DNA of 36,851 nucleotides, taken from assembly GCA_021299095.1 (NCBI GenBank), contig JAJTFW010000033.1, positions 1-36,851 of the forward strand, read 5' to 3'. A program made the translations under genes and the position numbers. This DNA is from Sphingobacteriales bacterium (GTDB taxonomy: Bacteria; Bacteroidota; Bacteroidia; AKYH767-A; OLB10). The notes beneath the pieces are model-generated. The model worked only from the letters and a program-made list of their open reading frames with translations. It was not told the DNA's origin and made no database searches. Shown one piece after another: positions 1 to 21,000 of this stretch (the stretch's first letter is position 1; every line of letters starts with the position of its first letter).

Positions 1-1608
1 TACGTTGCCATCACATACCGTCGTGTCAGTAACGATGTCGGCGCTGGTGGTATTATCAATCAGCAGAACGGCTAACGTATCGGTTCCGCTCAGGAAACGT
101 CCGCAGTCATTCGCAATGGTATTGCCATCGGAACCTCCTGCGTTTTGTACAATCAGGTAAAGTGTTCCCGGAGCACTTTGGAATCCGGCCATCTCAACAA
201 GAATCTGGTTCGTCTTGAGGCCGTTCGGGCTGCAGTATCCCCATACGTTGTCGATCGGATAGGTATTACCGGCTCCATCAACAAGTTGTACGTCGGTACC
301 ATCGTTTGCAATGGAGTAACAGTAAACGCTATCGGACAGTGTGACGGTGAAGCTATCGAAAAGACACTCCAGTGAATCGGTTATAGGACCCCACACGCTG
401 TTGTCGGTTACAACAATGTTCACCGTGTCCTGGAATTCGGGAATTTCAGAACCGCACTCCGAGAGCAGGGTGTTTCCGTCGAGACCGCGCTTGATCCAAA
501 CATAGGTGCTGCCTACAGTAAGGGGGTTGAGGAAGGTCACCAGCAGGGAATCCGTCTCACCGTTACTGCAGTTAATCGGCTGTACGTTGATGACCGGATT
601 GGGAATGCCTTGCGGGCTCAGAACACGGAAATCGGTAGGAGCAGCAGACCCGCACTGGAAGGTGGTGTCGAAGGGGATGACCACCTGGCGGTCATTACAA
701 GCGGCTACCAATTGACCATTTGCTCCGGTCAGGATACCATTACTGAACGAGGGGAAGATCTGGTTGCACTGCTGCACAATGTTGATTTGAATGTCGCGCT
801 TCACGGAACCGATGACCACTCCATTGCGGTACTCACGTACCAATACGCACATTACCGCTACTTGGACCTGTGATGGAATGAAATTGATTACACCGGCTGC
901 AGAGTTGATCGTGATTGGAATTGAGGAAGCGCAAAAGTTGGTGGGTGAATAGGGCGCGATGTAGGTGTTGGGAATCGGGTTGTTGGGGCATGCGCCGAAC
1001 TGGCCGTCTTCAGCAGTCACCAGTGAAAACACCAGGGAGTCTCCGTCGATATCAGTTGCTCCCTGATCGTAGAAGAACTGATTGCCTACGCAGAAGCGGG
1101 TGTATGCCAGGTTCGAGAAGGTTGGTGAAGAGTTGGTTGGCGCAGTGATGTTGTCAAGGCGTGCACTTACATACATGCCGTTCGGCTGCAGGGTAGTGAT
1201 TGCGTTGTTGCGGCAGCAGTCGGCCCAGGTGAATTCCCAGTCGGATGCGGCAACCGGAAGGTTGATGATGGCCTCGTAAACGTATTCTTCGATGTCTCCT
1301 ACACCTCCTGGACATACCGGGTTTGCCGTTACGCAGGGCGTGTTGGGTACGGGAGTAAATCCTGCTTGGGGCGCGGTTACCGTACCACTTTGTCCTGTGC
1401 TTGCCGAGTAGTAGCAAAAGGTGACCTGAGTTGGCGCATCAATACCGACACAATCCCGGTAGAACTTGAGGCGCACGAGGTACTGGTTTGGCGTACCGGT
1501 GTAGGTGTAAGTAAGGTCGACACCGGCCATGTGTGAGGCTTGCGAACTTTGCGGTGCCAGCATCAATCCGGCAAGGACCAATGCAATCAGGGTAATTAGC
1601 TTTTTCAT
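1..1608 (-). CDS. Large secreted adhesin-like protein, N-terminal 536 codons (runs off the left edge)
   Basis: The frame is open from an ATG at 1608 to base 1, so the C-terminus is missing. It begins MKKLITLIALVLAGLMLAP followed by QSSQA, a clear signal peptide. The mature part opens SHMAGVDLTYTYTG and then VRLKFYRDC, the usual opening of a family of very large Bacteroidota surface proteins whose far end normally carries a T9SS/gliding-motility sorting domain. Cysteines and short Ig-like beta segments recur (for example FTWADCCRNN, FGACPNNPIP). The start lies 32 bases after the stop of the anti-sigma-like gene, with no -7 box seen in between, so it is probably the last gene of the sigma/anti-sigma transcript. 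An outer-surface location is expected from the family. That it is a T9SS client is inferred, because the C-terminus is outside the window. Substrate or partner unknown. Confidence 0.8.
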   Translation of the reverse strand, partial: MKKLITLIALVLAGLMLAPQSSQASHMAGVDLTYTYTGTPNQYLVRLKFYRDCVGIDAPTQVTFCYYSASTGQSGTVTAPQAGFTPVPNTPCVTANPVCPGGVGDIEEYVYEAIINLPVAASDWEFTWADCCRNNAITTLQPNGMYVSARLDNITAPTNSSPTFSNLAYTRFCVGNQFFYDQGATDIDGDSLVFSLVTAEDGQFGACPNNPIPNTYIAPYSPTNFCASSIPITINSAAGVINFIPSQVQVAVMCVLVREYRNGVVIGSVKRDIQINIVQQCNQIFPSFSNGILTGANGQLVAACNDRQVVIPFDTTFQCGSAAPTDFRVLSPQGIPNPVINVQPINCSNGETDSLLVTFLNPLTVGSTYVWIKRGLDGNTLLSECGSEIPEFQDTVNIVVTDNSVWGPITDSLECLFDSFTVTLSDSVYCYSIANDGTDVQLVDGAGNTYPIDNVWGYCSPNGLKTNQILVEMAGFQSAPGTLYLIVQNAGGSDGNTIANDCGRFLSGTDTLAVLLIDNTTSADIVTDTTVCDGNV

Positions 1609-1640: not shown

Positions 1641-2717
1641 TCATCGGAAGAGTTGAAGGGTTCCTTTTTGTTGGATAGGGCCGGCTTCTGATGAGCCGAC
1701 GAATATATCAAAAATGTAGGTGCCTTCCGGGGCGAACTCCCCTGTAGAGAGTCGTCCATCCCAGCCCTGGGAGAGGCTCCGGGTCCGGAATTGCAGGCGG
1801 CCGTCCCGGGTGTAAATACGCAGCTCTCCATCGATGGAGTCGGCACCTTCAACAGCGAAGCGTTCGTTGACACCGTCGCCATTTGGACTGAAGGCGTTGG
1901 AAATGCGGCCAAGGACGGTGATGTTTTCGCAGATCTGCTGGCCTGTCGATTCACAGCAAATGCTGTAGGTGCCGGGTTCACTGCAGCCGAAACTGACACC
2001 CGCACCCGAGCGTGTTTTGGTACCGTCAGGCAGGATGAACTCAACCGGGCGCCCCTGCTGGTTGCTCATCGCCGTTACACGCAACGGCGCAAACCCCGCA
2101 CGCGAAGAGAGAATCAGTTTTAAGGGAGTTGCCGAAGCAAGTTTTTCCACGGATTGACTTGTTGCACCTGAAGGCGAAGCGCTTTTGTTCGTACCGGAGA
2201 CCGAAGCACTGGCCTGGCCTGTTGGAGTTGACCCGGTTGCTCCATCTTGCTTGTGCTCGGGCACTTGTAGTGAAGGGCTCTGAGCAGCGGAAGGAAGTAC
2301 CTCTTTGTTTGCCGGCATTGAGGTCTCAGCCTGCAGAGCATTTGGAGATGACCCCGTCTGAACTAGCAGGTCTCCATGTTGCGTTTCGGTCAGTGCACCG
2401 GCAGTCTCTACTTCAGATTCGTCCTTCGGCTTGGTTTGATCCGGAATCTGCTGCTCCGAAACAGGAGCTTGAGTCGGCTCCGAATTCAGCAGTACCCATC
2501 CGCCAACCAGGCTTCCCCCCAACAGAGCGGCAACAATGATTTTTTTAATCAGGCTGGTACCCACCGAAACCGTTTCGGGCTGGACCGTGGGTGCGGTAGG
2601 GGTTGACACGGGCAGGTGCGCGGAAACTTGCTCCCACATGCCTTGAGGCACCTCAGGACTGAATCCCTCCAGATGCTCCCGGATACGCTGCTCGAAGTTT
2701 CCGCCTTCGCTGTTCAT
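1641..2717 (-). CDS. Anti-sigma-factor-like membrane protein with PKD-like module and T9SS type B C-terminal domain
   Basis: 358 residues. Residues 1-57 are cytoplasmic-looking and resemble the short helix of Bacteroidota anti-sigma factors (FEQRIREHLEGF, then VPQGMWEQVSAHL). Residues 60-78 form one membrane helix after KK, uncleaved as far as can be seen. Residues 80-195 are a low-complexity Q/S/T/A/P linker. Residues about 199-268 form a PKD-like beta domain with Cys residues (YSICCES). Residues 272-358 are a gliding-motility/type B sorting domain (NAFSPNGDGVNE, GWDGR, EGTYIFDI, ending GTLQLFR). The ATG overlaps the stop of the upstream sigma factor gene (ATGA), which points to translational coupling. 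What is seen: the architecture and the overlap. What is inferred: that it restrains the neighbouring sigma factor and that its periplasmic part senses T9SS or surface status. It could instead be a plain T9SS substrate with a signal anchor. Confidence 0.85.
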   Translation of the reverse strand: MNSEGGNFEQRIREHLEGFSPEVPQGMWEQVSAHLPVSTPTAPTVQPETVSVGTSLIKKIIVAALLGGSLVGGWVLLNSEPTQAPVSEQQIPDQTKPKDESEVETAGALTETQHGDLLVQTGSSPNALQAETSMPANKEVLPSAAQSPSLQVPEHKQDGATGSTPTGQASASVSGTNKSASPSGATSQSVEKLASATPLKLILSSRAGFAPLRVTAMSNQQGRPVEFILPDGTKTRSGAGVSFGCSEPGTYSICCESTGQQICENITVLGRISNAFSPNGDGVNERFAVEGADSIDGELRIYTRDGRLQFRTRSLSQGWDGRLSTGEFAPEGTYIFDIFVGSSEAGPIQQKGTLQLFR

Positions 2718-3259
2718 GGTTTATGTTGTTCAATCGCCCTGACCAATGAGGCCCTGGCGCGTGCGTACTGTGATTTACTCGTGCCCTCGCTGATGTTCAG
2801 GAGTAGGGCAATTTCCTGGTGGGTGTACCCTTCAACAGCGTACAGATTGAATACTGCCCTGTAGCCTTCCGGAAGCGACCGGATGTGTTCGAGGAGGTCC
2901 GTTGCAGCCAAGCGCTCCAGAATTTCGGGTGGCGCCGTGGGTTCCTCGCTTGTGTCGAGTTCTGTCCAGTGGAGCCGCTGTTTGCGCAATTGCTCCAGCG
3001 CCGTGTTCACAACCACTTTACGCAACCAAGCTTCCAGTGCCCCCTCTCCCCGGTAACCCTGTAAGGTCCGGAAGGCCTTCAGGAATCCCTCCTGAAGCAA
3101 ATCTTCCGCCTCCTCGCGGGATGCTGCATAGCGTAAACACACGCCGAACATCTTGCGGGAGAAACGCTCAAAGAACTCGCGCTGCGCACCGGTATTGCCT
3201 CGTAATACGGCTTCTACCAGCTGCGCATCACCCATTTTCATCGGATTCTCATTAGACAT
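2714..3259 (-). CDS. ECF-type RNA polymerase sigma factor (sigma-70 family)
   Basis: 181 residues from the chosen ATG at 3259 (MSNENPMKMGDAQLV). The open frame extends 29 codons further but has no family similarity there, and a later ATG (MKMGD) is also possible. Region 2 is clear (FFERFSRKMFGVCLRYA, then EEAEDLLQEGFLKAF and WLRKVVVNTALEQLRK). Region 4 ends the protein with a helix-turn-helix (LPEGYRAVFNLYAVEGYTHQEIA, here two adjoining pieces, then NISEGTSKSQYARARASL). Length is typical of ECF sigma factors. It heads a unit with the anti-sigma-like gene (4-bp overlap) and the large adhesin. The sigma factor would direct RNA polymerase to a small regulon under control of its membrane partner. 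Targets are unknown, and no -7 box of the housekeeping type is evident upstream, so it may be autoregulated. Confidence 0.92.
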   Translation of the reverse strand: MSNENPMKMGDAQLVEAVLRGNTGAQREFFERFSRKMFGVCLRYAASREEAEDLLQEGFLKAFRTLQGYRGEGALEAWLRKVVVNTALEQLRKQRLHWTELDTSEEPTAPPEILERLAATDLLEHIRSLPEGYRAVFNLYAVEGYTHQEIALLLNISEGTSKSQYARARASLVRAIEQHKP

Positions 3260-3413
3260 GATGGGTTGCGAGGCGATTGCGTTGCATGTGAAAATAGGCT
3301 TTCCTGCAAATCGTTGATTATCAATTCTAAAATTTGAAACGCACACCGCTCGATCCGCCCAATTTGAATCGGGTCAAACTTTGCTCCGCCGTTATTCGGG
3401 GCCTTCTGTTTCT

Positions 3414-5639: not shown

Positions 5640-7697
5640 TCAGTTTCTGAAAACGCGTGCGGTGGCTCGCTGGTCACCATTTTCCACTTCAATGAGCAAC
5701 ATGCCACTGGCGTACTTGCCGGGTTGAATCAAAATCCTCCCTTCGCTGGCAGGTTGTGTTTCGGAAAACAACACTTGTCCAAGTGAATTCCGAATCCGGA
5801 TGTGTACTTGTGAACCTTCGCCGAATGTGCCCACGAGCCAGATGTGTTCCCTTGCAGGGTTTGGATAGGCAAGTACGCGAAGTTCAACCGAGCGGCCTTC
5901 GTCCAACGATTGTGGAATACACACTCCCGGTAGGTTGGCGTCGAGCCAGGTTGAGCGGTTGGTAACCCAGTTTTTCAATTCTTGGATAACGCCGCCATAG
6001 GTACTGGGGTAAGGTGCAGGGTTGGGCCATACATACACACCCAGTATGGGCCAGCGCACAAAATTGCGAGCCTGTGCTTCGTCCAGCACCAAAGCCATAC
6101 TATCAATCCAGGCAAACAAAGCTGTATTACTCAAAACTCCCGCACGCAGTGACTCCCATCGGCAGCGTGCCCTATTGCTGAAATAGGGATCCTGCTGCAG
6201 CCTCACCCACCAAAATGGTACCTGATTGGGTGCGCTTGTGTTACTGTACAAGTGACTGTAGCCGCTAATCACATCACCACCATCATAGTTCGCGTTGCCC
6301 CAAGCAATGTCGAAATCCCATACCGGACCCATGACAAGCTGACCACCATCGTTAACCTTGCGTTTGTGGAAATAGCTGCTAATCCGGAATCCATCAATGT
6401 TCTTGGCGAACTCATTGATGATCAGGTAGTCGATCCACGAGTCGACCTCGATGAATGGTCTGTACCCTAAGAACTGGTCGGTGAATTGAATTCCGCGCAG
6501 GGCGTTTTCGAAGCTGTCGCAATACTGCTGGATGTATTGAATCTGCTGGGGTACAAGCGTATTCCCATCGGGGTATTCGTACAGAATATCGGGAGTAGGG
6601 CCTCCGTTGTAGGGAGGATATTGGCTGGGGAAGCCCCCAGTGACACTCCCAGTCTGCTTGTCGACTTTCAGGATGTATCCTCCGGTTAGGCTATCTCCAC
6701 TGATATCGGCAGGAGTCAGGTTTGCAATATCGACACGCCCCGGTCCACGTTTAATTTTTTCCAACAGGATGAAAATCCCCTGATACTGTCCGTTGATGAC
6801 GATTTCGCAGTGCCTGAAACGGGAGGCATAGTTTCCGAGTTGTTGTGCGATATGATAGCTGAGGCAGTTCCGAAGAAAGGTCTTGTCTGAATAACTTGCG
6901 TTGAAGATCCAGTCGCTTTCCGAGGGCATGCCTACCAGCGGTGTATCTGTTTCGTTGCCCAGTGAATCACGGATATCAAAGCCGTAGGATTTTTTGGGAA
7001 GTGTTTGGGAAAAGGATCCGCGTGTTTCAATGCCAATAGGACCAGCAAAGATGTTACCCTTGTCACCGATGTAATTGCGTTGGCCCGGACCGTTATCAAT
7101 CAGGTCAATATAGGCTGGAATTTTCGGATCATCGGGTATGCCGGCACCATAGGTGTTGATTCGTACGATGGGTAGATTGGACGATTGTAAGGCCAGGCCC
7201 GAGAAGGGCATAGGCGCAAACGTGAGGTACGCACCATTCATGAATCCTGCATCTACACCGGGCTTTGCATCACGCACTAGCAGGTTCCAGGTGCCGTTGG
7301 AATTCTGCCGGTTGTTCGCCGTAAAAAGCCATCCTTCTGGTCGATACGAACCGGTGAAAGGGGCATTGCCATTGTTGATACGTCCGGCAACGGTATCATA
7401 AAAACACGTCGACCAATAGTTGTCTCCCGAGCCTCCATTACGGGTACTCAGCTCGATTTTGGTTCCGTCAGGACATTCAAGGTAGATTTCAAGGTCACTC
7501 ACATAGGGGTGCGTGACGTTGATGCAAACCGATTTCAGTCCGAAGGTAGAGTCCGCCTGCACAGGAAGTCCGCTCACCGCAACGGGAAATGCAGTCAATA
7601 CACCATTGTCGGGGATGCTGCCGTTACTGCAGCTGAACGATTGTGACTGTGCAATGTGTGTGGAGCACAGTATCAAAAGTGCAAGAATTCGATACAT
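5640..7697 (-). CDS. Secreted CotH-kinase-family protein with P-domain and T9SS type A sorting domain
   Basis: 685 residues from the ATG at 7697 (MYRILALLILCSTHIAQSQ, signal peptide). An in-frame ATG five codons earlier overlaps a -7-like box and is rejected. Residues about 20-160 are a proprotein-convertase P-type beta domain (CINVTHPYVSDLEIYLECP, GTWNLLVRD). Residues about 170-560 are a CotH domain: KKSYGFDIRD, SDWIFNASYSDKTFLRN, GGYILKVDKQTG, and the VWDFDIAWGN motif that resembles the kinase metal-binding segment. The last about 80 residues are a type A sorting domain (YPNPAREHIW, IRNSLGQVLF, YASGMLLIEVENG). CotH proteins are atypical protein kinases in spores and are widespread as secreted proteins; the target here is unknown. 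Expected at the cell surface or released. It converges on the doxX-like gene with no gap. Confidence 0.92.
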   Translation of the reverse strand: MYRILALLILCSTHIAQSQSFSCSNGSIPDNGVLTAFPVAVSGLPVQADSTFGLKSVCINVTHPYVSDLEIYLECPDGTKIELSTRNGGSGDNYWSTCFYDTVAGRINNGNAPFTGSYRPEGWLFTANNRQNSNGTWNLLVRDAKPGVDAGFMNGAYLTFAPMPFSGLALQSSNLPIVRINTYGAGIPDDPKIPAYIDLIDNGPGQRNYIGDKGNIFAGPIGIETRGSFSQTLPKKSYGFDIRDSLGNETDTPLVGMPSESDWIFNASYSDKTFLRNCLSYHIAQQLGNYASRFRHCEIVINGQYQGIFILLEKIKRGPGRVDIANLTPADISGDSLTGGYILKVDKQTGSVTGGFPSQYPPYNGGPTPDILYEYPDGNTLVPQQIQYIQQYCDSFENALRGIQFTDQFLGYRPFIEVDSWIDYLIINEFAKNIDGFRISSYFHKRKVNDGGQLVMGPVWDFDIAWGNANYDGGDVISGYSHLYSNTSAPNQVPFWWVRLQQDPYFSNRARCRWESLRAGVLSNTALFAWIDSMALVLDEAQARNFVRWPILGVYVWPNPAPYPSTYGGVIQELKNWVTNRSTWLDANLPGVCIPQSLDEGRSVELRVLAYPNPAREHIWLVGTFGEGSQVHIRIRNSLGQVLFSETQPASEGRILIQPGKYASGMLLIEVENGDQRATARVFRN

Positions 7698-7701
7698 ACG
7701 T

Positions 7702-7709
7702 GCAAGATA
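7702..7709 (-). promoter_or_regulatory. Weak -7-like box before the CotH-type gene
   Basis: Read on the minus strand this is TATCTTGC, similar to the TAnnTTCG/TAnnTTTG boxes found elsewhere in the window, and it lies 4 bases before the ATG at 7697. It argues for that start over the upstream in-frame ATG, which would lie within the box. Confidence 0.3.
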
Positions 7710-7757
7710 CACATCCCACGTTTAAGAAAAGCAATGCGTGCACCAATACAGATGTCC

Positions 7758-18390: not shown

Positions 18391-18471
18391 TGTCTCAGTT
18401 GTTCAATTGTCCATGTTTAAATCCTCTTCTGCATCGATTGAAAATCAAGGCTTTGGGGCATGGGATTCGAT

Positions 18472-18479
18472 TATTTTTG
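18472..18479 (+). promoter_or_regulatory. Candidate -7 box for the choice-of-anchor-L protein gene
   Basis: TATTTTTG fits TAnnTTTG and ends 7 bases before the ATG at 18487. A TTTG lies at 18452-18455, a 16-base spacer, slightly shorter than usual. It favours 18487 over the upstream in-frame ATG at 18460. Confidence 0.35.
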
Positions 18480-18486
18480 GCCCTCG

Positions 18487-21000
18487 ATGCCTATTAAACA
18501 CCACCGTTTGTTGACCCGGTTTTGCATCATGATGTTGTGCATTAGTGCACCAGCATGCTTTGTGTCACATGAGGTGAGGGCCCAATTACAGGTCACCCCC
18601 GCGGTTCCGGCGGTTCAGTTGGCCTCCACACTCGCAGGCCCCGGCGTATCGGTATTTAATGTGACGCATCTGGGAGATAGTCTCTCCATCGGTTCTTTTT
18701 CCTCGGCAGGGACTGCCCCTGGACTTAATTCCGGGATTCTGCTCAGCACGGGTCCTGTCGGAATTGCCATCGGACCCAACTCGGCGAACAATGCCGGCGC
18801 ATATTTCAATCGCGCAGGAGATTCACTGCTTGCAGGTTTTACTGCTGCGCCCTTGTTTGATGCCTCGGTTCTGGAATTCGATTTTGTGCCGCAAAGTGAT
18901 ACAGTCCGATTCCGCTACGTGTTCGCCAGCGAGGAGTATCCCGAGTTCGTGTGGGCCATCAATTCAATCAATGGAGGTTCAATGGGCTCCAGCGTTACGG
19001 TATCTGCGCCCTGCGATACGTTCAATGTCGGATTGTATGTCGATAACCTGGGCGGGCAGGTGTTGCAGTACGATGGATATACTGCGGTTATGCAGGCAGT
19101 GGCTCCCGTTATTCCCTGTGAAACGTATCACCTGAAGATTGTAATTGCGGATGCCGGCGATGGATTCTACGATTCCGGTGTATTCCTGGAAGCTGGAAGC
19201 ATGGTTTCGACACCGGTTGTTCTTGCAGGCAATGATACTTCTGTTTGTTCGGGAGCACAGGTTCAGTTGGGCACTTCACCAGCCGCCGGTTGGACCTACG
19301 CCTGGACTCCGGCTACGGGTCTCAGTTCAGCTACAAGCGCCATTCCAATACTCAACGCACAAAACACGGGTTCATCTGAAAATAGTACTATGTATGTTGT
19401 CAACGCCAGCAATGGATCTTGTGTGCTCACCGACTCTGTGCTCATAACGGTAACGCCCCAACCCCTTGCATCGTTTGTATTACCGGATGCCGTGTGTCAG
19501 TTCGATACGGTATCGCTGACCTATGCGATTTCTTCTATACCCAATGCACAAATAAATTGGGTGTTCGGTGGAAATCCTAGTACTCAGCTAGGTGTAGGTA
19601 GTATGGATTTATCATGGTCACAATCCGGACTATTTCCTGTGAATCTGATGGTACAGCAGGGTATTTGCTCTGATATGTTCAGCGATAGTATCCGGGTAAA
19701 TCCCTTACCCATTGCAGCCTTCACCGGTGGACCTGTTTCATCCTGTTTGCCGGTAAGTCTGCAAGTACAGACCTCCGCATCCAATGCAGGTATCACGATT
19801 GCATCCGCTAATTGGACCTTCGGAAACGGAACGAACGCGAATGGTGTATCAGCACAACATGAATATACAACACCCGGTTCGTATGCAGTGGGTTTGAGCT
19901 TATGTTCCGATCAGGGCTGCTGTTCTGACACATTGCTGGACAATTATGTAAATGCCTTCGCAGTGCCGCGGTTTTCACTCACCGGTGTTCCACCAACAGG
20001 CTGCGTTCCACACACTGCTACGTTTTCTGCGCAAGTCGATTCATTCGGGGTGCGTTTAGCCTCGGCCGATTTGGCCTATGGCGATGGAGTGGAGGAGAGT
20101 GGATTCTCGTTTTTGCATACATATACCGATACCGGATCTTTCGACGTATCCTACAGCATCTGCACGATTGAGGGCTGCTGCTCAGATACCCTGCTACCTG
20201 CATACATTCAGACGTATCCCACTCCTGTGGCTTCGTTCATCGCGCAGCCTCTGTCGGGTTGCTCACCGCTTGAGGTCAGCTTTAACGGGACCATTGACAC
20301 ACGCGGGGCGGTGATTAATTCAATTGACTGGGTTTTAGGAGATGGAAATTCTACGTCACAAGTTGATCAGTTCACGCACCGCTATGAAGATCCTGGTTCT
20401 TATTCGGTGGAGCTCACCGTTTGTTCCGACCAGGGATGTTGTGCAGACACGCTGCGGTCAGATTATATCGAGGTGTACCGTGAGCCTATCGCGGGCTTTC
20501 GTTATTTCCCGGAGGAGCCGGATGTCTTTCTTTCGCGGATTGCGTTTCAGGATGAGTCAGTATTTGCCGATAGCTGGGAGTGGTCTTTCGGCGATGGAAA
20601 TACCGCACAGTTCAGTATGCCGATACATCAATACACCGACACGGGATTGTATGAGGTACTGCAAATAGTTCGAACACTGGAAGGATGTGTTGATTCATCA
20701 CAACAGGTTGTCGATATCCGTCCGGTGCCATCCGTATGGATCCCATCTGCTTTCAGTCCGAACAACGATGGCCGGAATGATGTGTTTGCTGTAAAAGGCG
20801 ATTACCTGGTCGGTTTGCGTTGGCGCATTTACAACCGCTGGGGTGAATTGATTGCCACTGGCAGTGGCATCGGTTCGTCCTGGGATGGTACTACCCGCGA
20901 TGAGCCGGTTCAGGAAGGGATATACCTGTATGAGGTGGAAACGGAGGATGTGCGTAGCGGAGCGGAACAATTCCGCGGACGGGTAACCCTTATCCGTTAG
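18487..21000 (+). CDS. Secreted choice-of-anchor-L / PKD-repeat protein with T9SS type B sorting domain
   Basis: 837 residues from the ATG at 18487 (MPIKHHRLLTRFCIMMLCIS, signal peptide ending near VRAQ); 18460 is an alternative. Residues about 35-240 form a choice-of-anchor-L-type domain: RYVFASEEYPEFV, then YDGYTAVMQAVAPVIPCETY and IADAGDGFYDSGVFLEAGS. A linker with an Ig-like segment (ATGLSSATSAIPILNA) follows, then four or five PKD-type beta domains, three of which carry a CC pair (CSDQGCCSDT, CTIEGCCSDT, CSDQGCCADT). The end is a gliding-motility type B domain (IPSAFSPNNDGRNDVF, YNRWGELIATGSG, EGIYLYEVE, GRVTLIR). Such proteins are exported by T9SS and held on or released from the surface. 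Function unknown. It converges on the AMSDH gene with a 12-base gap. Confidence 0.93.
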   Translation: MPIKHHRLLTRFCIMMLCISAPACFVSHEVRAQLQVTPAVPAVQLASTLAGPGVSVFNVTHLGDSLSIGSFSSAGTAPGLNSGILLSTGPVGIAIGPNSANNAGAYFNRAGDSLLAGFTAAPLFDASVLEFDFVPQSDTVRFRYVFASEEYPEFVWAINSINGGSMGSSVTVSAPCDTFNVGLYVDNLGGQVLQYDGYTAVMQAVAPVIPCETYHLKIVIADAGDGFYDSGVFLEAGSMVSTPVVLAGNDTSVCSGAQVQLGTSPAAGWTYAWTPATGLSSATSAIPILNAQNTGSSENSTMYVVNASNGSCVLTDSVLITVTPQPLASFVLPDAVCQFDTVSLTYAISSIPNAQINWVFGGNPSTQLGVGSMDLSWSQSGLFPVNLMVQQGICSDMFSDSIRVNPLPIAAFTGGPVSSCLPVSLQVQTSASNAGITIASANWTFGNGTNANGVSAQHEYTTPGSYAVGLSLCSDQGCCSDTLLDNYVNAFAVPRFSLTGVPPTGCVPHTATFSAQVDSFGVRLASADLAYGDGVEESGFSFLHTYTDTGSFDVSYSICTIEGCCSDTLLPAYIQTYPTPVASFIAQPLSGCSPLEVSFNGTIDTRGAVINSIDWVLGDGNSTSQVDQFTHRYEDPGSYSVELTVCSDQGCCADTLRSDYIEVYREPIAGFRYFPEEPDVFLSRIAFQDESVFADSWEWSFGDGNTAQFSMPIHQYTDTGLYEVLQIVRTLEGCVDSSQQVVDIRPVPSVWIPSAFSPNNDGRNDVFAVKGDYLVGLRWRIYNRWGELIATGSGIGSSWDGTTRDEPVQEGIYLYEVETEDVRSGAEQFRGRVTLIR
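19711..20475 (+). repeat. Three tandem PKD-type coding repeats with paired cysteines
   Basis: Three units of about 83-87 codons (near 19711-19959, 19960-20220 and 20221-20475). Each runs from a hydrophobic A/S-F start through a Y-G-D-G or FGNGT turn to a GCC(S/A)DTL motif and a final Y. Units 1 and 3 are closest at the protein level (LCSDQGCCSDT and VCSDQGCCADT). They encode repeated beta domains that could be cross-linked by the adjacent cysteines. Confidence 0.7.

Follow-up and report, generated by a model that had tools for sequence, protein, structure and literature searches.

In a Sphingobacteriales bacterium, an ECF sigma factor is encoded next to a membrane-anchored anti-sigma-like protein that ends in a T9SS type B-like CTD, and this sigma/anti-sigma switch appears, from genome comparison, to control genes for T9SS-exported proteins. 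The preferred reading, to which we assign a probability of about 0.6, is that a Dma-like anti-sigma factor couples the expression of T9SS cargo to the state of the T9SS by way of a CTD that acts as a probably non-exportable probe. Such a switch could let the cell keep production in step with export; the literature searched contained no account of matching T9SS cargo synthesis to export capacity outside PorXY-SigP. This reading would extend the Dma family from barrel-tethered to secretion-signal-tethered anti-sigma factors, and the elements that the locus offers can all be tested: a sigma factor, an anti-sigma factor with a domain of T9SS type, a promoter motif and the predicted regulon of cargo genes.

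The locus, within the window (the whole 36,851-nucleotide stretch of DNA that was analysed), comprises the following features.

3259..3286, minus strand: predicted autoregulated ECF promoter, TGCAAC (-35) N17 CATCA (-10), a motif match
2714..3241, minus strand: ECF sigma factor gene, whose open reading frame opens at 3346
1641..2717, minus strand: anti-sigma-like protein, membrane-anchored, with T9SS type B-like CTD, 358 aa
2610..2702, minus strand: N-terminal two-helix domain, aa 6-36, common to barrel-type relatives
2484..2552, minus strand: single transmembrane helix, aa 56-78, N-terminus predicted cytoplasmic
2127..2483, minus strand: disordered periplasmic tether, aa 79-197, 119 residues, from pLDDT and helix-CTD distances
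1911..2126, minus strand: PKD-like beta domain, aa 198-269, from the model and from PKD_4 in relatives
1644..1904, minus strand: type B-like T9SS CTD, aa 272-358, with TRDG in place of NRWG
1..1608, minus strand: downstream secreted protein (MKKLITL...SHMAGVDLTY...), 536 aa up to the contig end

The sigma open reading frame matches Sigma70_r2 and Sigma70_r4_2 (Pfam) and TIGR02937 (NCBIfam). Because the promoter at 3259-3286 overlaps the upstream part of this frame, a start at 3241 is likelier than one at 3346, and the alignment of a conserved MxDExL also points to 3241. The sigma and anti-sigma genes overlap by four bases, ATGA, which hold the ATG of the latter and the stop codon of the former. 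The operon order in the window's family is sigma, anti-sigma, cargo: directly downstream in 18/18 CTD-type loci of this family (f1), as well as at locus L110, comes the gene for a large secreted protein that belongs to a single protein family (SHMAGVDLTY...) and whose relatives have a C-terminal type B CTD with NRWG intact. Genes of the same cargo family have a promoter copy to themselves in three genomes (G035, G063, G010). Two more probable T9SS cargo genes are found in the window, at 18460-21000 (plus strand) and 5640-7712 (minus strand), one with a type B CTD and the other with a type A-like tail, and elsewhere in the genome (G000:C36:2672-3218) a convergent pair of type B CTD genes has its C-termini facing within 40 bases.

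The sequence-only reading had proposed that an anchored anti-sigma-like protein is coupled to the adjoining ECF sigma factor, and this pairing is borne out by the open reading frames, their domains, the ATGA overlap and a family of such pairs. With the anti-sigma protein as the sole query, nine full-length relatives were recovered, and each of the nine adjoins the best sigma relative from a separate search. Since relatives found by the anti-sigma protein alone adjoin sigma relatives found independently, a chance pairing is very improbable. A scan of genome contigs with the anti-sigma protein as query found no loci; the same scan with the sigma alignment found 80. Downstream proteins were gathered, starting from the sigma factor, from about 130 loci, and to score their CTD type we used a profile whose only input was 17 cargo CTDs from the window's genome. 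By this measure 41 sigma-linked proteins, the window's included, carry a type B CTD (E from about 1e-25 to 1e-11), and all 41 match both CHU_C (Pfam) and TIGR04131 (NCBIfam). The pairs span about ten family-level groups of Bacteroidota, the window's family and some nine others, and also occur in Flavobacteriales and Crocinitomicaceae records, including Crocinitomix catalasitica ATCC 23190; in every case collected, an ECF sigma gene adjoins the anti-sigma-like gene. As to the origin of the CTD type, the sigma tree requires 11 changes and the CTD tree 6, both with weak support. SprA is present in 41/41 CTD-type genomes; because it is also present in 16/19 other genomes tested, this is consistent with a tie to the T9SS and does not prove one.

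An AlphaFold2 model of the window's anti-sigma protein, built on 13 sequences, contains helices at residues 7-17, 25-34 and 56-78, disorder over about 79-197, a beta domain at 198-269 and the CTD at 272-358, with pLDDT below 50 across residues 35-196. Tandem Ig-like proteins, such as latent PorU and the RgpB CTD, figure among the fold matches, with scores kept low by the disorder of half the model. CHU_C matches residues 272-355 (Pfam, E 1.1e-12), and comparison with the TIGR04131 model, which the sequence-only reading had called for, gave a match at 35.6 bits, barely above the cut-off of 35. The proposed PKD-like module fared less evenly: Pfam finds no PKD match in the window protein itself, and what stands behind the module is the beta domain of the model, a profile of which matches the PKD domain of ColH, together with PKD_4 in 18/41 members. 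Many relatives lack this module, and the sequence of the linker varies freely.

The membrane helix starts between residues 45 and 66 in 40/41 members, and at residue 82 in the remaining one. At least 121 residues separate its end from the start of the CTD in 41/41 (median 169). Over the 41 members the net charge is +43 before the helix and -25 after it; acidic residues number 95 after versus 20 before, and for this subset positive charges alone do not settle the topology. A cleaved signal peptide within the first 80 residues would have undone the anchored reading. The alignment consensus instead places a conserved 55-residue N-terminus ahead of the long hydrophobic helix 56-78, an arrangement unlike that of a cleavable Sec signal peptide, and, on the same consensus basis, an AxA cleavage site occurs in only 1/41 members. 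Kinship to FecR or RskA, with whose profiles the sequence-only reading had called for a comparison, is rejected, as neither the window protein nor the 41-member alignment matches such a profile in Pfam or NCBIfam. A profile search of the PDB likewise found no anti-sigma relative.

The relatives of this protein lie instead among sigma-linked proteins of another layout. Of 52 long non-CTD proteins encoded next to related sigma factors, 34 end in an OMP_b-brl_2 barrel, and alignment of the CTD-type proteins with these 52 by hhalign is confined to the N-terminal 38 columns (97%, E 8e-11). No barrel family is matched by the 41 CTD-type members, all of which have CHU_C in the barrel's place. Dual membrane-spanning anti-sigma factors (Dma) have been described in Bacteroides thetaiotaomicron, where Dma1 and Dma2 end in an outer-membrane beta-barrel (PMC13088901, Pardue et al. 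2026). As judged by profile alignment, the N-terminal domain of the CTD type is homologous to that of the Dma-layout proteins, which are likened to Dma1 by layout. Given this shared domain and the barrel layout of Dma1 and Dma2, the predicted CTD-type protein is the Dma plan with its barrel exchanged for a T9SS CTD. Both have an N-terminal anti-sigma domain, one membrane helix, a long disordered tether, an outer-membrane-directed C-terminus and an adjoining ECF sigma factor. They differ in that a PKD-like module and a T9SS type B-like CTD here replace the beta-barrel, and in that the predicted regulon consists of T9SS cargo rather than of the vesicle or polysaccharide-use genes of Dma. Because the barrel is a defining feature of Dma, we do not file the CTD type under that name. 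The view that an anchored, T9SS-tagged regulator departs from the usual model thus holds in part: Dma1 and Dma2 share its plan with a beta-barrel (PMC13088901), which leaves it less isolated than had been stated, and the literature searched described no CTD-bearing anti-sigma factor, to which the 2024 PNAS paper on Dma1 might add such variants. The two types coexist in the window's genome, where a barrel-type anti-sigma gene with a divergent ECF sigma gene lies on another contig (G000:C52:21662-22975, L144:1063-2376).

Binding of the sigma factor by the N-terminal helices draws indirect support from an AlphaFold2 model of a barrel-type relative (L207), in which the sigma factor and the anti-sigma N-terminus were modelled as a read-through fusion on five alignment rows. 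This model has a pTM of 0.73 and places the two anti-sigma helices at pLDDT 86-93; the same two helices have pLDDT 56-64 in the window model without sigma, for which the alignment differed. The fold of the L207 sigma factor is nearest to chains solved with anti-sigma factors (SigW-RsiW, TM 0.68), compared with about 0.32 for RNAP-bound chains, and CnrH (PDB 4cxf) is among the fold matches of the fusion. The window protein resembles CnrY, the partner of CnrH, in having a very short two-helix anti-sigma domain ahead of its membrane helix, and differs in that it has no sequence match to CnrY and an unrelated periplasmic part.

The pattern TGCAAC-N17-NNTC(T/A) precedes the sigma gene in 30/43 CTD-type loci, where shuffled sequences would yield 0.14. 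Its distance to the start is about 45 bases and the spacing is 17 bases without exception (consensus TGCAAC-N17-CATCT); the pattern is also found before 10/57 barrel-type and 4/25 short-type sigma genes. The promoter is assigned to this sigma factor by autoregulation, and paralogous sigma factors may share the motif. A strict form, TGCAACC-N17-RTCTW, was searched for in 30 CTD-type genomes, and 87 distinct matches were examined: 39 lie within long open reading frames, 8 have no open reading frame after them and 40 are intergenic with a gene behind. Eight of these 40 precede the sigma gene itself. Pfam assigns a T9SS CTD to 17 of the other 28 complete proteins, of type B in 11 and of type A in 6; the binomial p for this count is about 1e-15 to 1e-19 at a background of 3-5% that was assumed rather than measured. 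A control with 13-nucleotide spacing gave 24 matches in 14 of the 30 genomes, none of them intergenic with a gene.

In 14 genomes with barrel-type pairs only, 30 strict matches were examined, and the 12 that are intergenic with a gene include two sigma genes and two or three cargo-like genes; the promoter is weakly enriched there and less tied to cargo. Because barrel-only genomes carry it before sigma genes and a few cargo-like genes, the motif belongs to a wider sigma group, and its predicted tie to cargo is strongest where a CTD-type pair exists. In the window's own genome, matches to a relaxed pattern are mostly intragenic, so that no regulon is visible beyond the operon, and in G006, G007 and G014 the sigma operon holds the only strict match in the genome. 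The link to T9SS traffic that had been supposed at this locus is strengthened by the cargo genes of related genomes, before which the sigma factor's own promoter motif stands. In one genome (G056), two paralogous short secreted proteins of unassigned family (L289, L291) are each encoded 40-43 bases after a strict copy.

The CTD of the anti-sigma proteins is altered in one respect. The NRWG strand, between the PNGDG loop and WDG, has its Arg in 48, its Trp in 44 and both in 43 of 50 cargo CTDs taken from the collected loci. Among 39 anti-sigma CTDs the Arg occurs in 12, the Trp in none and the pair in none, and the window's CTD reads TRDG at this site; Fisher p values for the comparison ignore relatedness and are a guide only. 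Conservation of the other hallmarks (PNGDGxND, WDG, GxY and the terminal L-x-R/K) matches that in cargo, except that the Gly in the last strand is weaker. The sorting domain was therefore wrongly called full and intact. Secretion of SprB in Flavobacterium johnsoniae depends on every one of five type B motifs, of which B, D and E are strand motifs and A and C loop motifs (PMC12618676). From the order of the motifs we infer that NRWG is motif B of that study, whose text prints no motif letters.

No PorP/SprF-like shuttle gene is present in the window, and six are found elsewhere in the genome. With NRWG altered, all five SprB motifs needed and no PorP/SprF-like gene in the window, the anti-sigma CTD would be expected to be retained rather than exported. 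The protein is similar to T9SS type B cargo (TIGR04131/PF13585; SprB, Fjoh_3952; PMC12618676, PMC9143113) in its C-terminal CHU_C domain with PNGDG, WDG, GxY and a terminal basic residue. It differs from such cargo in being membrane-anchored and in lacking a cleaved signal peptide, the Arg-Trp of NRWG and a linked PorP/SprF-like shuttle, and a TIGR04131 match alone does not make a protein secreted cargo. Because it is anchored and lacks this Arg-Trp pair, the CTD is more likely a non-exported probe than cargo.

Under the preferred reading, that of a Dma-like coupling through a CTD probe, the two-helix N-terminus would keep the sigma factor at the inner membrane, and the PKD-like and CTD-like domains would reach across the periplasm on the one membrane helix and a tether no shorter than 121 residues. 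There the CTD may sample the T9SS, be it the translocon, a PorP/SprF-like shuttle or cargo that is passing through. When the occupancy of the T9SS changes, proteolysis or a conformational change would release the sigma factor. The free sigma factor is predicted, from the enrichment of the motif, to transcribe TGCAAC-N17-CATCT promoters, namely that of its own operon, including the cargo gene in the window's family, and, in related genomes, those of dispersed cargo genes. In the FlgM/sigma-28 flagellar checkpoint, the sigma factor controls the late cargo of an export machine, and the anti-sigma factor carries a signal of that machine. The protein described here likewise bears the signal of the machine that exports its sigma factor's predicted cargo, but it is membrane-anchored, is directed to another machine and is probably not exported. 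In the PorXY-SigP/PorA pathway of Porphyromonas gingivalis, an ECF sigma pathway for the T9SS receives feedback from a T9SS CTD protein (PMC7712824). The window locus likewise ties a CTD protein to an ECF sigma factor; PorXY-SigP, in contrast, is a two-component system over T9SS machine genes, and PorA is a surface protein, not an anti-sigma factor.

Three other explanations were weighed. There is perhaps one chance in four that the Dma-like anti-sigma factor uses its CTD as a reused Ig-like module that senses peptidoglycan, lipoproteins, membrane stress or the like without contact with the T9SS. Barrel-type relatives have roles in the control of the envelope and of vesicles (PMC13088901), the PKD module is absent from many relatives and the linker free to vary, and the loss of Arg-Trp in 39/39, with no PorP/SprF-like gene in the window, speaks against ordinary shuttle recognition. 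Against this reading stand the cargo-like conservation of the remaining hallmarks, SprA in 41/41 genomes and the sigma promoter before T9SS cargo genes. Clearly less probable is FlgM-like export, the model of the sequence-only reading, in which the T9SS takes the CTD as a true signal, pulls it or exports the cleaved periplasmic part, and so releases the sigma factor. A C-terminal CTD above the TIGR04131 cut-off, its conserved terminal motif and the cargo regulon are in keeping with export; against it stand the transmembrane anchor with no cleavage site, the missing linked shuttle gene and an NRWG strand that, taken as motif B, is altered in all, where SprB secretion needs every motif (PMC12618676). 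Finally, that the protein is ordinary T9SS cargo, its start placed too far upstream and the sigma gene a chance neighbour, is very improbable despite a PKD-plus-CTD layout normal for cargo, given a conserved N-terminal domain common to sigma-linked barrel proteins, sigma linkage in 9/9 relatives, no signal-peptide cleavage motif and the loss of Arg-Trp in 39/39.

The sigma-linked relatives vary in other ways too. Several loci (L204, L111, L120, L188, L174, L190) encode two or three successive copies of the two-helix anti-sigma motif ahead of the membrane helix. A third, short class consists of the N-terminal motif and a membrane helix, with neither barrel nor CTD (L152, L154, L157, L167 and L173, in Chitinophagaceae and relatives, and L195, L209, L221 and L225). 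Barrel-type loci of Chitinophagaceae (L158, L160, L162, L164, L180, L212) have a variant promoter before the sigma gene, TGCAACG followed by TTGTCA at -10, suggesting a diverged specificity. In two barrel-only genomes, the strict promoter precedes genes for secreted repeat proteins that look to be of the DUF2807 type (L400, L421), a possible lead to the barrel-type regulon.
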